A stretch of DNA of 38,032 bases, from positions 1 through 38,032 of IMG/VR virus record IMGVR_UViG_3300032271_001375, one strand, 5' to 3'. Under the pieces are notes generated by a model. That model was not told the DNA's origin, searched no databases, and worked only from the letters and a program-made list of their open reading frames with translations. This stretch comes from a virus. Shown piece after piece: positions 30,662 through 35,258 of this stretch. The translations under genes and the position numbers were made by a program. The number at the start of each line of letters is the position of its first letter. Positions within the stretch are counted from its first letter, which is position 1.

Positions 30662-31387
30662 ATGGCTTTGCCTAAAATTGATGTGCCGATTTATGAACTA
30701 GATTTACCACTATCAAAAAAACACATTCGTTTTAGACCATTCTTGGTCAAAGAACAACGTAATTTGATGATGGCGATGGAATCTGATGATAAAGAAACGA
30801 TAGAGAAAAACATTCGTCAAGTGTTACATAACTGTACCTTGACTGAAAATATTGATATCGATAGTTTACCAATCATTGATGTTGAATTCTATTTTCTAAA
30901 CCTAAGAGCTCGTTCTGTAGGTGAAATAGTAGAAAACAAATATCGTTGTGAAAATATTGTTGATGATAAAAAATGTAATAACTTAATGGACAGTCAGTTA
31001 AATCTATTGGACATTAAAGTAGACATGAATGGCTCCGTTGATGATAATATTCAATTGACTGATAAAATCAGTATCAAGTTGAAGTATCCTGAATTTTCTA
31101 TTTTGGAAAGATCCACCAATTTTGAAAATGCAACTGATATGGCTTTCGATATGATTGTTGAGAGTATAGAATCTATTTTCGATGGTGAACAATTCTATTA
31201 TGCCAAAGAAACAGATCCGGCCGAATTGGTTGAGTTTGTAGAGTCTTTGAATCAGGAGCAGTTTGCTAAGATTGAAGAATTCTTTAATAACTTACCAAAG
31301 TTAAACAAAACAATTGAAATGAATTGTAAGAAATGTGGATTTCATCACATCATTGAAGTGGAGGGACTAGAAAGTTTTTTCGGATAA
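30662..31387 (+). CDS. 26: gp26-like baseplate hub assembly protein (short, zero-frame product)
   Basis: The 241-residue protein fits the T4 gp26 family (PF12322; T4 gp26 is 208): LPLSKKHIRFRPFLVKEQRN near the start, E-K-N-I-R-Q-V-L-H-N-C, then the V-E-F-Y-F-L-N-L-R-A-R-S strand-helix (about residue 75). It has two cysteine pairs (R-C-E-N-I-V-D-D-K-K-C near 99 and N-C-K-K-C-G-F-H-H near 223) that could form a zinc-ribbon. GGAGATATAAG precedes ATG. In T4, gp26 helps assemble the hub and is paired with gp51. A slippery T_TTT_TTC heptamer lies two codons before the stop, so this may be the shorter of two products, as in G/GT tail chaperone pairs. Confidence 0.85.
   Translation: MALPKIDVPIYELDLPLSKKHIRFRPFLVKEQRNLMMAMESDDKETIEKNIRQVLHNCTLTENIDIDSLPIIDVEFYFLNLRARSVGEIVENKYRCENIVDDKKCNNLMDSQLNLLDIKVDMNGSVDDNIQLTDKISIKLKYPEFSILERSTNFENATDMAFDMIVESIESIFDGEQFYYAKETDPAELVEFVESLNQEQFAKIEEFFNNLPKLNKTIEMNCKKCGFHHIIEVEGLESFFG
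31375..31381 (+). promoter_or_regulatory. Candidate -1 ribosomal frameshift site T_TTT_TTC
   Basis: In the gp26 frame the codons are AGT TTT TTC GGA TAA. The seven bases T TTT TTC fit the X_XXY_YYZ rule for simultaneous -1 slippage. After slippage the next codon is CGG (31381-31383), entering a frame that stays open to 31569. An 11-bp perfect inverted repeat (31419-31429 with 31456-31466) lies about 37 bases downstream; this is farther than usual for a frameshift stimulator. Confidence 0.65.
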
Positions 31388-31569
31388 CATTTCGTCATGA
31401 TAATTTAAGGAATTACTATCAAACAAACTTCTCATTGATGCAGCACCACAAATACAGTTTGTTTGAACTTGAAAATATGATTCCATGGGAGCGTGATATC
31501 TACGTGAGTATGCTTATACAATACATTGAACAAGAAAACGAAAAAATTAAGCAACGTCAAAGAAAGTAG
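31381..31569 (+). CDS. gp26 frameshift extension (gp51/T-like, start-less ORF)
   Basis: In the -1 frame relative to gp26 there are 62 sense codons from CGG at 31381 to TAG at 31567-31569. The peptide reads ITFRHDNLRNYYQTNFSLMQ, HHKYSLFELENMIPWERDIY, VSMLIQYIEQENEKIKQRQRK. It is highly charged and helical and has the L-x-x-M-x-P-W-E-R-x-x-Y-x-x-M-L pattern seen in the T-domain of frameshifted tail chaperones. There is no ATG before position 31438, and that ATG has no visible ribosome-binding site. Upstream the frame is closed by TGA at 31354-31356. The likely product is a 302-residue fusion (240 from gp26 plus 62). T4 gp51 is separate and much longer, so equating the two is uncertain. Confidence 0.65.
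   Translation, partial: RITFRHDNLRNYYQTNFSLMQHHKYSLFELENMIPWERDIYVSMLIQYIEQENEKIKQRQRK
31419..31466 (+). repeat. 11-bp inverted repeat in frameshift extension
   Basis: TCAAACAAACT (31419-31429) is the exact reverse complement of AGTTTGTTTGA (31456-31466), separated by 26 bases. It is in coding sequence, downstream of the slippery site, and could fold as a long-loop hairpin in the message. Confidence 0.7.
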
Positions 31570-33144
31570 ATGAACTATCAACAAGCATCAGAAGTAAGAG
31601 GAAGAGGTTTTCTCGGTAACATTACCGATAACCTCGTTTCCGGCCAATCAATTGGCAAATCATTTGGTCGTGGTATATCAGATACCTTCAAAGCCAAAGC
31701 CGTAGGCATCAAAGAAAAATTTGATCCAATTCGTCTTGCACAAAAAATGACCGGCAACTTGGGTGGTGCCTTGGTTGGTCGTATGTTGGGTCGTAAAAAA
31801 GAAGACATGCAACACTTTCTTGGTGGCCAATATGGTTCATCAGCAAGAGATGATGGCTTTGGTAATGTCAGTACAGCATTTTTCTCGACAGTAACTGGAC
31901 CTAGAAAGTTAGAATCTGGTGATTCTGTAACAGATGTAGCAAGTAAACTGTTTGCTTTTATGGAAAAATCGAGAGATGAAAAGAATAAACAGTATGAATT
32001 AAAAAGAGACTTTGAAGAAGAAGCTTTGGCTGAAGATGAAATGAGACATAAAAAACTTCTAAAGGCCATTGAAGATACCAAAAAAATACCAGAAGAAGAA
32101 AAAGAAAAACCTAAAAAAGAAGAAAAGAAAAAAGAAGAACCAAAGAAAGAAGAACCTAAAAAAGGTGAGCCAGCTAAAGGTGAGCCAGCTAAAGGTGAGC
32201 CAGCTAAAGGTGAGCCAGCTAAAGGTGAGCCAGCTAAAGGTGAGCCGTCAAAGATAGCTGAGCCAAAAAATCCGCCGCCTGAAAAAACACCAGTTAAAAT
32301 TGCCAAACCAACAATTCAAACTAAACCACCACCAACTACTACACCAGTTACTCCTGCGGCACCTGCAGCAACTTCTGCTGGTGTATCTACCGCAGTTAAA
32401 GTTGCGGGCGCAGGTGTTGCTGTTGCCGCTTCTGGTGCAGCTTTGGCTAAAATAAGAGGTCATGAAGGATATGTACAACACGCATATTATGATCCTAAAA
32501 GGGATGCTAGTGGAAAAGTTTTAGAAGAACACTATTCGGTTGGATACGGACACCAAATAACATCCGATGAAATAAAAAAAGGTTACATTGAAATTTCTGG
32601 TAAAAAGATACCTGTTGTAGGAGAATTAGGAAAAGATACTGTTATCTCAAAAGAAGATGCGGATGCTTTATCTGTTAAAGAATATAAAAAATATGAAGAT
32701 TCTGCTAAAAAAATAACGAATTTTAATAAATTGAATCCTAGTGCTCAGTCGGCACTTATAGATATGACATACAACATGGGTGTGGGTTGGTTTAGTCCAC
32801 AAAAATGGCCAAGTTTGCATAACGCTCTCCAACAATTAGATATGAATGCTGCGGCACAAAGCATTGTGAATTCAAAATATTATAAAGATACAGGTAAAAG
32901 AGCACAAGAAAATGTTATGTTGATTAAGAATGGGCTTAATGCAACAAAAGAAGTTCCCAGTCAAATAGATGTTGGCCAAAAATTAAACGAAACATCAATT
33001 CAAAACAAAGAAATTAAACAACAAGCTGGAACAACTGTGATGATTAATAAGTCACAAAATACAATCATTCAAAGTGGTTCTAAACAACAACCTCAAGTGA
33101 TAACACCTCCCACACATACAGATAAACCAATGATGATGGAATAA
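31570..33144 (+). CDS. Hub or tail lysozyme protein with tape-measure-like N-terminal module
   Basis: The 524-residue protein starts directly after the frameshift-extension stop. Residues 10-85 (FDPIRLAQKMTGNLGGALVG, GRMLGRK, EDMQHF) and 117-170 (acidic coiled-coil) resemble parts of the next protein. Residues 175-235 are Lys/Glu/Pro-rich with five exact KGEPA repeats; 240-290 are Pro/Thr/Ala-rich linker. Residues 293-455 form a GH24 (T4-type) lysozyme domain: E299 in H-E-G, D308 in Y-Y-D-P-K and S323 in Y-S-V-G-Y-G-H take the places of T4 E11, D20 and T26, and A-L-I-D-M-T-Y-N-M-G-V-G-W follows. E-to-D spacing equals T4; D-to-S is longer. It would cut peptidoglycan during injection, a job done in T4 by gp5. 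Confidence 0.85.
   Translation: MNYQQASEVRGRGFLGNITDNLVSGQSIGKSFGRGISDTFKAKAVGIKEKFDPIRLAQKMTGNLGGALVGRMLGRKKEDMQHFLGGQYGSSARDDGFGNVSTAFFSTVTGPRKLESGDSVTDVASKLFAFMEKSRDEKNKQYELKRDFEEEALAEDEMRHKKLLKAIEDTKKIPEEEKEKPKKEEKKKEEPKKEEPKKGEPAKGEPAKGEPAKGEPAKGEPAKGEPSKIAEPKNPPPEKTPVKIAKPTIQTKPPPTTTPVTPAAPAATSAGVSTAVKVAGAGVAVAASGAALAKIRGHEGYVQHAYYDPKRDASGKVLEEHYSVGYGHQITSDEIKKGYIEISGKKIPVVGELGKDTVISKEDADALSVKEYKKYEDSAKKITNFNKLNPSAQSALIDMTYNMGVGWFSPQKWPSLHNALQQLDMNAAAQSIVNSKYYKDTGKRAQENVMLIKNGLNATKEVPSQIDVGQKLNETSIQNKEIKQQAGTTVMINKSQNTIIQSGSKQQPQVITPPTHTDKPMMME
32161..32250 (+). repeat. 15-bp tandem repeat encoding KGEPA
   Basis: Five exact copies of AAAGGTGAGCCAGCT start at 32161 and are followed by one altered copy at 32236 (encoding KGEPS). 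The segment forms a charged, extended Pro-rich linker before the lysozyme domain. Exact copies suggest recent expansion by slippage. Confidence 0.92.
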
Positions 33145-33146
33145 AA

Positions 33147-35258
33147 ATGCAAACAACACAATCATTAGAAAAAGAATTATTTGTTTGGAATCCAAAAGCC
33201 TTTAGTAATAGAGGTTATTGGTTTACATTAAAAGAAAATGGTTGGTACGGCAGACCTGCAAATAAAGCAGAAGCCGAACAACTCGGTAAACCAAAACCAT
33301 CCGATACACTTATCAGTCCAAATAAAAACTCTAAAGTTAAATTGCATGCAAGGATTATACCTGTTGTATCGGCAATACCAACATTAGAAGAACCTGCACC
33401 ACAACAAACAGTTATTAATCAAACAACTGTTGTGGGTTCAAAAGGTGAAAAAGGTGATACTGGCGCAAGAGGTGTTACAGGTGCTTCTGGCCGTGACGGT
33501 GCTGCTGTTGGAGTATCCGGTCGTAATGGTACTGATGCTATTGGTTCTAGAGGTACTGCTGGTCGTAATGGTACTGATGCTATTGGTTCTAGAGGTACTG
33601 CTGGTCGTAATGGTATGTCTTATTCTGAAGCAGCCGGCATAAGAAAGACTAAACTAAGTGATTTAATTACAGATAAACTTGTATCAGGTGAAGGTGTATT
33701 CTCATCCATTAAAGGTGGTATATCCGATAAGATGAAGGCAAAAGCCAAAGGTGTAAAAGAGGCTTTTGATCCGCTTAATATGGCCAGAAAATTAACTGGT
33801 GGTTTAGGTGCAGCTATGCTTGGTAGAATGACAGGTCGTAGTCAAGAAGACATTGAACATTTCACTGGTAGAAGTGGTGGTAGAAGTCGTTCTTCTGGTG
33901 CCGGAACACCAACTAGAATGGCTTCGTCTAGTCCTGGAACAGCAACTCAAATGAGTTCAGGTTCAAGTAAAAGTATAGACAAAGCAGTATATTCCAAAGT
34001 TGCCGATGGCAAACAAGAAAAACTTAAAAAAGGTGAAGGTGTAGCTAATGTATTAGCCAAACTTTATAATCTTATTAAGAAACAACATGAAGATGAAATT
34101 GAAAGAAGTGAATTGGAAAAGAATTTTGCTGAAGAAAAAGAAAAGAAAAGAGATAAATGGAATGATGAATTGATTCAAGCCATTACAGGCATGAAAGCTA
34201 AAGGTAAAACAACAAAAGCAAAACCTGAAAAAGGTGGTGGTGTATTAGATTTCTTAAAAGGCATATATGATAAAGCAATTAAATGGGTGGAAGATAAATT
34301 TGGTTGGATTATGGATTTGAAAGATTGGTTACCAAAATTGTCTTTCTTAACTGCATTTACAACAATAGGTGAACTTATATTATCCATTATAGGTAGTGGA
34401 CCATTTTTGGCTGCTGTAGGTGCTGCTGCTCTTGTTGCCGTAGCCGCATATCTTTCTGGTAAAGCCACAGAATGGATTCGTGAAAATGTAAAAGACATGA
34501 AGAAACCTACGCCTGAAGAGGCAGCCAATATATTGGCCAATGGTAAAGAAGAAGATATTGCTTATTATAACATTGTTGATAGAAATACCGGTGAAGTTAT
34601 GATGGGTGGACGTGATGTTCTATCTGATATTATTAAAAGTGCAAGAGGTGAATCTTCATGGGATGATAATGCACCTCCTAGTGAAGGTGTTCCGCAACAA
34701 ACAGCAACTCAATTGTCCAATGTTCCACCACGACCTGATACAACTGGTGGTAAAAACAAATCAAGAGCAGATAATTGGGATAGAAAATTTGGTAACACAC
34801 ATAATCCTGATGGTACACCAAAAGTACAAACTGCAGCCAAACCTTTGCCTTCTGGTGTTGAAGAATCTACAGCTGGCGCAGGACAAGGTTCAGCAACAGC
34901 TGCACGAATGGATCCAAGAAGACTTGACTTAGTTACTCCTGATGCAGGTGTAACTACAGGTGGTGGTGCTTATGTTGGTGGTATGCACGGTGTTAAAAAA
35001 GTACCAAAACAAATGGCTGGTGAAATGCCAGCACAATCAAATCCATTAAGTGAAAGAGTTCAGGCTGCTATTGCACAAAATAATGATTTGCAAGCCGAAG
35101 ATTCCGGAAAAGTAATTGTGATTGACCAATCCAAAACAATAAATTCTGGTGGAGGCGGAGGTGAATCAGGTGGCGTTACATTTGGTGGTTCTGTATCAGT
35201 AAGAACCGATGATGATTCTCTACGCAAGGTACAAAGACAAGGTCTACGACCCATATAA
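33147..35258 (+). CDS. Large hub or tape-measure-like protein with collagen-like repeats
   Basis: The 703-residue protein is a partial paralogue of the lysozyme protein. Residues 1-85 are a distinct N-terminal part (W-N-P-K-A-F-S-N-R-G-Y-W, W-Y-G-R-P-A). Residues 98-158 are collagen-like Gly-x-y repeats (GSKGEKGDTGARGVTGASGR and following). Residues 168-240 match residues 10-85 of the neighbour (I-T-D-K-L-V-S-G; KAKAKGVKEAFDPLNMARKL; G-R-M-T-G-R-S-Q-E-D-I-E-H-F), and 292-352 match its coiled-coil. A hydrophobic segment at about 398-440 (FLAAVGAAALVAVAAYLSGK) is like the membrane-active part of tape measures. The C-terminus is Gly/Pro-rich. T4 gp29 is the obvious functional counterpart, by size and place only. 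The collagen repeats are unusual for that role. Stop overlaps the A-run of the terminator. Confidence 0.8.
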   Translation: MQTTQSLEKELFVWNPKAFSNRGYWFTLKENGWYGRPANKAEAEQLGKPKPSDTLISPNKNSKVKLHARIIPVVSAIPTLEEPAPQQTVINQTTVVGSKGEKGDTGARGVTGASGRDGAAVGVSGRNGTDAIGSRGTAGRNGTDAIGSRGTAGRNGMSYSEAAGIRKTKLSDLITDKLVSGEGVFSSIKGGISDKMKAKAKGVKEAFDPLNMARKLTGGLGAAMLGRMTGRSQEDIEHFTGRSGGRSRSSGAGTPTRMASSSPGTATQMSSGSSKSIDKAVYSKVADGKQEKLKKGEGVANVLAKLYNLIKKQHEDEIERSELEKNFAEEKEKKRDKWNDELIQAITGMKAKGKTTKAKPEKGGGVLDFLKGIYDKAIKWVEDKFGWIMDLKDWLPKLSFLTAFTTIGELILSIIGSGPFLAAVGAAALVAVAAYLSGKATEWIRENVKDMKKPTPEEAANILANGKEEDIAYYNIVDRNTGEVMMGGRDVLSDIIKSARGESSWDDNAPPSEGVPQQTATQLSNVPPRPDTTGGKNKSRADNWDRKFGNTHNPDGTPKVQTAAKPLPSGVEESTAGAGQGSATAARMDPRRLDLVTPDAGVTTGGGAYVGGMHGVKKVPKQMAGEMPAQSNPLSERVQAAIAQNNDLQAEDSGKVIVIDQSKTINSGGGGGESGGVTFGGSVSVRTDDDSLRKVQRQGLRPI
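33519..33602 (+). repeat. Two exact 42-bp copies in the collagen-like region
   Basis: Positions 33519-33560 and 33561-33602 are identical, and a partial third copy begins at 33603. Each encodes GRNGTDAIGSRGTA. The DNA identity points to recent duplication within the collagen-like segment. Confidence 0.92.

Follow-up and report, generated by a model that had tools for sequence, protein, structure and literature searches.

The gp26 gene of the virus in IMG/VR record IMGVR_UViG_3300032271_001375 is very probably (probability of about 0.9) a tail assembly chaperone gene in which a -1 programmed ribosomal frameshift yields a short (TAC-N) and a long (TAC-NC) form of the protein. The window analyzed here is the whole 38,032-nucleotide stretch of that record (positions 1 to 38,032).

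Layout of the gp26 locus and conservation of the heptamer

In the zero frame of the plus strand, gp26 (30662..31387) encodes a 241-aa protein that belongs to PF12322 (1e-58) and phrog_150 (9.7e-64). The 3' end of the gene reads GAA AGT TTT TTC GGA TAA, with the slippery heptamer T_TTT_TTC at 31375..31381, a single sense codon (GGA) after it, and the stop codon at 31385..31387. This is an X_XXY_YYZ heptamer, as in -1 programmed ribosomal frameshift sites, positioned in the zero frame and within the overlap of the two reading frames. From the heptamer onward, nothing interrupts the -1 frame until a stop at 31567-31569, and the gp51-like extension that it encodes, the TAC-C part (31381..31569, plus strand; phrog_634, 2.7e-28), consists of 62 codons and a stop, counted after the Phe-Phe pair common to both products. 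Upstream of the heptamer, the -1 frame is open for only 6 codons, none of which could serve as a start; downstream, start codons first occur at 31435 (TTG), where a Shine-Dalgarno sequence is lacking in the window, and at 31438 (ATG). The next gene starts at 31570, directly behind the extension stop. A preliminary description of this DNA had thus been accurate in reporting a T_TTT_TTC in the gp26 frame near its stop, a 62-codon extension devoid of an early start, and no free space before the next gene. The length of 302 aa that it gave for the gp26-gp51 fusion (240 + 62) also stands, but the calculated mass is 36.0 kDa and not ~34 kDa.

We infer that most ribosomes terminate at 31387, releasing the 241-aa TAC-N, and that some of them slip back by one base on T_TTT_TTC. 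An internal GGAGGG could aid this step by pairing with the anti-Shine-Dalgarno sequence of 16S rRNA. The shifted ribosomes would then read to 31569 and produce the 302-aa TAC-NC, with the C-terminal helical extension that is usually annotated as gp51. By analogy with the G/GT proteins of lambda, both forms may cover the tape measure protein and bring in tail tube subunits.

To assess conservation of the site, viral contigs were scanned with gp26, with only the extension, and with a gp26 profile, and four named phages from a phage collection and the window itself were added. This yielded 239 loci with both parts, of which 182 were distinct and formed 128 clusters under 85% identity; the clusters are not independent of each other, and naive probabilities overstate the significance. 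The preliminary description had suggested looking for the heptamer in relatives, and T_TTT_TT[C/T/A] is found at the end of gp26 in every relative that holds both parts (239/239 loci, 128/128 clusters), including 79 of the 79 loci retrieved through extension motifs alone. Its final base is C in 100 clusters, T in 22, and A in 6, and the resulting TTC, TTT, and TTA variants, which include a replacement of Phe by Leu in gp26, are all still slippery. The first Phe codon is TTT in every cluster, and the codon preceding it, which spans Ser, Asn, Asp, Ala, and Gly, is NNT in 128/128. By comparison, the T_TTT_TT form occurs at only 9 of the 129 Phe-Phe pairs located elsewhere in these genes. The protein sequence does not force the heptamer either, because T4 gp26 keeps Phe-Phe in the nonslippery form TTC TTT, with no extension behind it. 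At 238 of the 239 loci, the extension is in the -1 phase relative to the gp26 open reading frame; in the exception (L123), gp26 is broken further upstream and the phase around the heptamer is the same. The heptamer and the gp26 stop are separated by 0 to 1 sense codons in 119/128 clusters.

An extension-like -1 open reading frame with no T6 heptamer follows gp26 in Det7 (L264, 2216-2402) and Vibrio K476 (L261, 2223-2405), where the sequences at the respective sites are GAG ATT TTC and CTT TTT. These two likely use another slippery site or some other mechanism.

Protein families, folds, and neighboring genes

Besides phrog_634, which is named baseplate hub assembly catalyst, the extension also matches the C terminus of phrog_150 (7.8e-7). 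The AlphaFold model of gp26 has a pLDDT of 89.8. When its residues 1-95 were compared with 585 chains using VIA-align, the best three were 3fgx, 3klu (YqbN), which we take to be a TAC-type protein, and the HK97 chaperone 2ob9. Their Z scores were 7.0-7.7 over 84-86 residues, followed by 5.1 and 3.2 for the next chains; a Z score under 8 is by itself a middling fold match, and it concerns the N-terminal domain only. The model is supportive of, while not conclusive for, a TAC fold of this domain, and the case for chaperone identity is made by the three related top matches together with the gene order. A Foldseek search with the gp26 model against PDB alone gave no significant match, and a sequence search of PDB gave no credible one. 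The extension is modeled as a helical domain (pLDDT of 86.9), for which a fold search with 64 aa among viral models returned no match at E 0.001. One viral protein in BFVD, A0A8S0HX62 (182 aa), has a match to the gp26 model as well as, at 54% identity, to the extension, and is possibly a natural in-frame fusion or a fragment.

The -1 frameshift of lambda G/GT, reportedly described by Levin in 1993 and Xu in 2004, occurs on a heptamer other than the T_TTT_TTC seen here, and the tail in the present case is contractile. In addition, the extension shows no detectable sequence relation to lambda T. The L-x-x-M-x-P-W-E-R pattern, previously taken as a sign of likeness to lambda T, found no support in a profile comparison (hhalign probability of 0.1%), and sequence homology to lambda gpT was rejected on that basis. 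The suggestion that gp26 is equivalent to lambda G fared better: it is supported by the N-terminal fold and by the position of the gene before large putative tape-measure-like proteins. The short product and the C-terminally extended long product would have the composition of a TAC-N/TAC-NC pair.

The two large genes that follow encode proteins of 524 aa (31570..33144, plus strand), with a lysozyme domain, and 703 aa (33147-35258). Neither matches a tape-measure family. The N-terminal part of the 524-aa protein is paralogous to residues 157-346 of the 703-aa protein (33% identity, 6e-27), and the 524-aa gene may be part of the client region. A weak collagen-like repeat is present in the 703-aa protein as well, and the 524-aa gene carries about six tandem copies of KGEPA codons at 32165-32260.

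In the classical T4 literature, gp26 and gp51 are given as chaperones of hub assembly (PMC3004832), which raises the question of whether the frameshift could be real and yet serve proteins that are baseplate hub assembly factors only and not tape-measure chaperones. We consider this rather unlikely, given the chaperone-like fold, the short/long pair, and the location of gp26 before large putative tape-measure-like genes. Furthermore, Vladimirov et al. (2022), as cited in PMC10885494 and PMC12846349, assign gp26 and gp51 as tail assembly chaperones. The hub-assembly and tape-measure-chaperone views may in fact be compatible.

Coding in the -1 frame and candidate stimulatory elements

Purifying selection acts on the -1 frame before any possible start codon, as a codon-substitution check suggested in the preliminary description revealed. 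In the close clade, which includes the window, the pN/pS of the -1 frame is 0.14-0.16, and it is 0.16 for the segment between the gp26 stop and the first ATG. The two alternative frames have values above 1.2 and contain 37 and 55 stops, versus 0 in the -1 frame. Among the start-less loci, the -1 frame pN/pS is 0.33 (bootstrap 0.20-0.49), and across both sets this frame is stop-free versus 37-95 stops in the others.

In many of the marine relatives, an ATG stands 3-5 codons past the heptamer, and the records of P-SSM2 and S-PM2 start gp51 there, as if it were a separate small gene, translated from a start of its own or through reinitiation linked to termination of gp26. Such a gene is very improbable. 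In 46 of the 128 clusters, the window clade included, the conserved first part of the extension lacks any start codon ahead of codon 17. Upstream of the heptamer, the open stretch of the -1 frame has a median length of only 6 codons, and the first start in this frame has a Shine-Dalgarno match in none of the 128 clusters, so that the relative with a start codon and a ribosome-binding site in this frame, which would have spoken against a frameshift, was not encountered at the first start. Independent initiation cannot explain the selection on the -1 frame, because the segment is start-less, its openness upstream is short, and a Shine-Dalgarno sequence is missing. A separate gene would also leave the invariant heptamer unexplained. 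The frameshift, in turn, agrees with a conserved coding -1 frame that lacks initiation of its own. In the records of S-WAM1 (L010), ACG-2014d (L259), and P-HM2 (L258), gp51 is either omitted or begun at a downstream ATG. These record starts leave conserved extension codons unannotated, and a joined gp26-gp51 product is annotated in none of the database records examined.

Within gp26, the Shine-Dalgarno-like GGAGGG (31360..31365, plus strand) lies 9 nt upstream of the heptamer. Its Glu codon is GAG in 54/97 cases versus a 22% background (p 1e-12), its Gly codon is GGG in 27/127 versus 4% for the gene background, and third-base G before the element is observed 65 times versus 23 expected; the median rank of the element is within the most Shine-Dalgarno-like ~2% of gene positions. 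This codon usage, which departs strongly from the background, shows that a GGAGGG-like element is kept at synonymous sites, and we propose that it acts as a frameshift stimulator. E. coli dnaX has a Shine-Dalgarno stimulator, which the element resembles. That the long product comes instead from transcriptional slippage on the T run, which reaches 7 or 8 T in some relatives, is highly implausible, as the run has only 6 T in 100/128 clusters, a short stretch for polymerase slippage, and holds the codon phase of tandem slippage, and the Shine-Dalgarno-like element would act on ribosomes.

Ribosomal slippage in the window would have this upstream element as its stimulator, with downstream structure absent. 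An 11-bp inverted repeat noted previously does exist (31419-31429 and 31456-31466), but its proposed role as a stimulator was rejected: it is intact in just 3/53 close-clade sequences, and the region folds no better than shuffled sequences (z of +0.85). Alignment folding downstream of the heptamer found no consensus structure in the window clade. In contrast, single-sequence folds of relatives include stems with z below -2 in 30/129 cases, many of them beginning 5-8 nt downstream of the heptamer. With stems in some relatives and no consensus fold in the window clade, downstream structure is lineage-specific. Strong stem-loops at or shortly after the heptamer, lacking in the window clade, are seen at loci L009, L012, L010, L224, and L229.

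Two genes in T4 and probably one in the window phage

T4 gp26 covers only positions 14-235 of phrog_150, whereas T4 gp51 covers 13-280, extension included, and the extension profile matches the C terminus of T4 gp51. Both T4 proteins are therefore members of phrog_150, one of them with the extension, and the two T4 genes would correspond to a single gene in the window phage: the short form is like T4 gp26, and the long form, like T4 gp51, combines a gp26-like part with the extension. T4 gp51, as a natural protein of this composition, supports the earlier suggestion that the extension is the equivalent of lambda T. The difference is that T4 has two separate genes on opposite strands and no slippery site, while the window has one gene and a -1 shift.

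The frameshift layout is found in Kyanoviridae, KVP40-type phi-pp2, Aeromonas 65.2, Stenotrophomonas Moby, and Acidovorax ACP17, and, with TTTTTTG, in Rhizobium AF3; the two-gene layout is found in T4 and Aes012. In Kyanoviridae (P-SSM2, S-PM2, Mosig), the gp26/gp51 locus is homologous and has the same heptamer as the window, but it is annotated as two genes, and several members have a stem-loop downstream, which is absent from the window. The jumbo phage Hallingskeid has a T_TTT_TTC and an open -1 frame near the end of gp26; the extension profile did not match this locus. On balance, we lean toward a scenario in which the -1 shift at gp26 would be the ancestral route to the chaperone pair in T4-type phages and several further myovirus lineages, operating through a near-invariant T_TTT_TTN and an internal Shine-Dalgarno stimulator. 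Within Straboviridae, genes 26 and 51 would have taken the place of the shift in the T4 branch and in Aeromonas Tulanevirus, where the slippery codons would have disappeared, with recoding giving way to gene duplication.

Tail assembly chaperones of T4-like phages were identified by Vladimirov, Gautam, and Davidson (2022, Virology 566:9-15; via PMC10885494 and PMC12846349), whose title proposes a mechanism other than frameshifting. In the citing passages, the PRFect paper (PMC10885494) credits that work with T4-like phages that have a short gene and a fused long gene, and the paper on phage Adele (PMC12846349) with poly-T -1 slippery sequences in T4-like TAC-N genes. Judging from these citations, the phenomenon is of a known kind and probably partly reported, and a frameshift at the gp26 locus of T4-type phages, of which the preliminary description knew no example, is probably not undescribed. 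The TAC locus of Adele and other Vandenendeviridae (PMC12846349) likewise has a poly-T GTTTTT and a conserved -1 extension that is elsewhere annotated as a separate gene; Adele belongs to a different phage family, and the likeness noted here is one of locus layout. New here are the comparative evidence, the Shine-Dalgarno-like element, and the breadth of the distribution.

If the frameshift is real, what is called gp51 in cyanophages and in their marine and freshwater relatives would be the C-terminal part of a frameshift product, and hundreds of records would therefore be misannotated. The locus would also provide a simple site for probing the role of an internal Shine-Dalgarno element, and a natural comparison, in one virus family, of frameshifting versus gene duplication as means to a fixed ratio of two assembly proteins.
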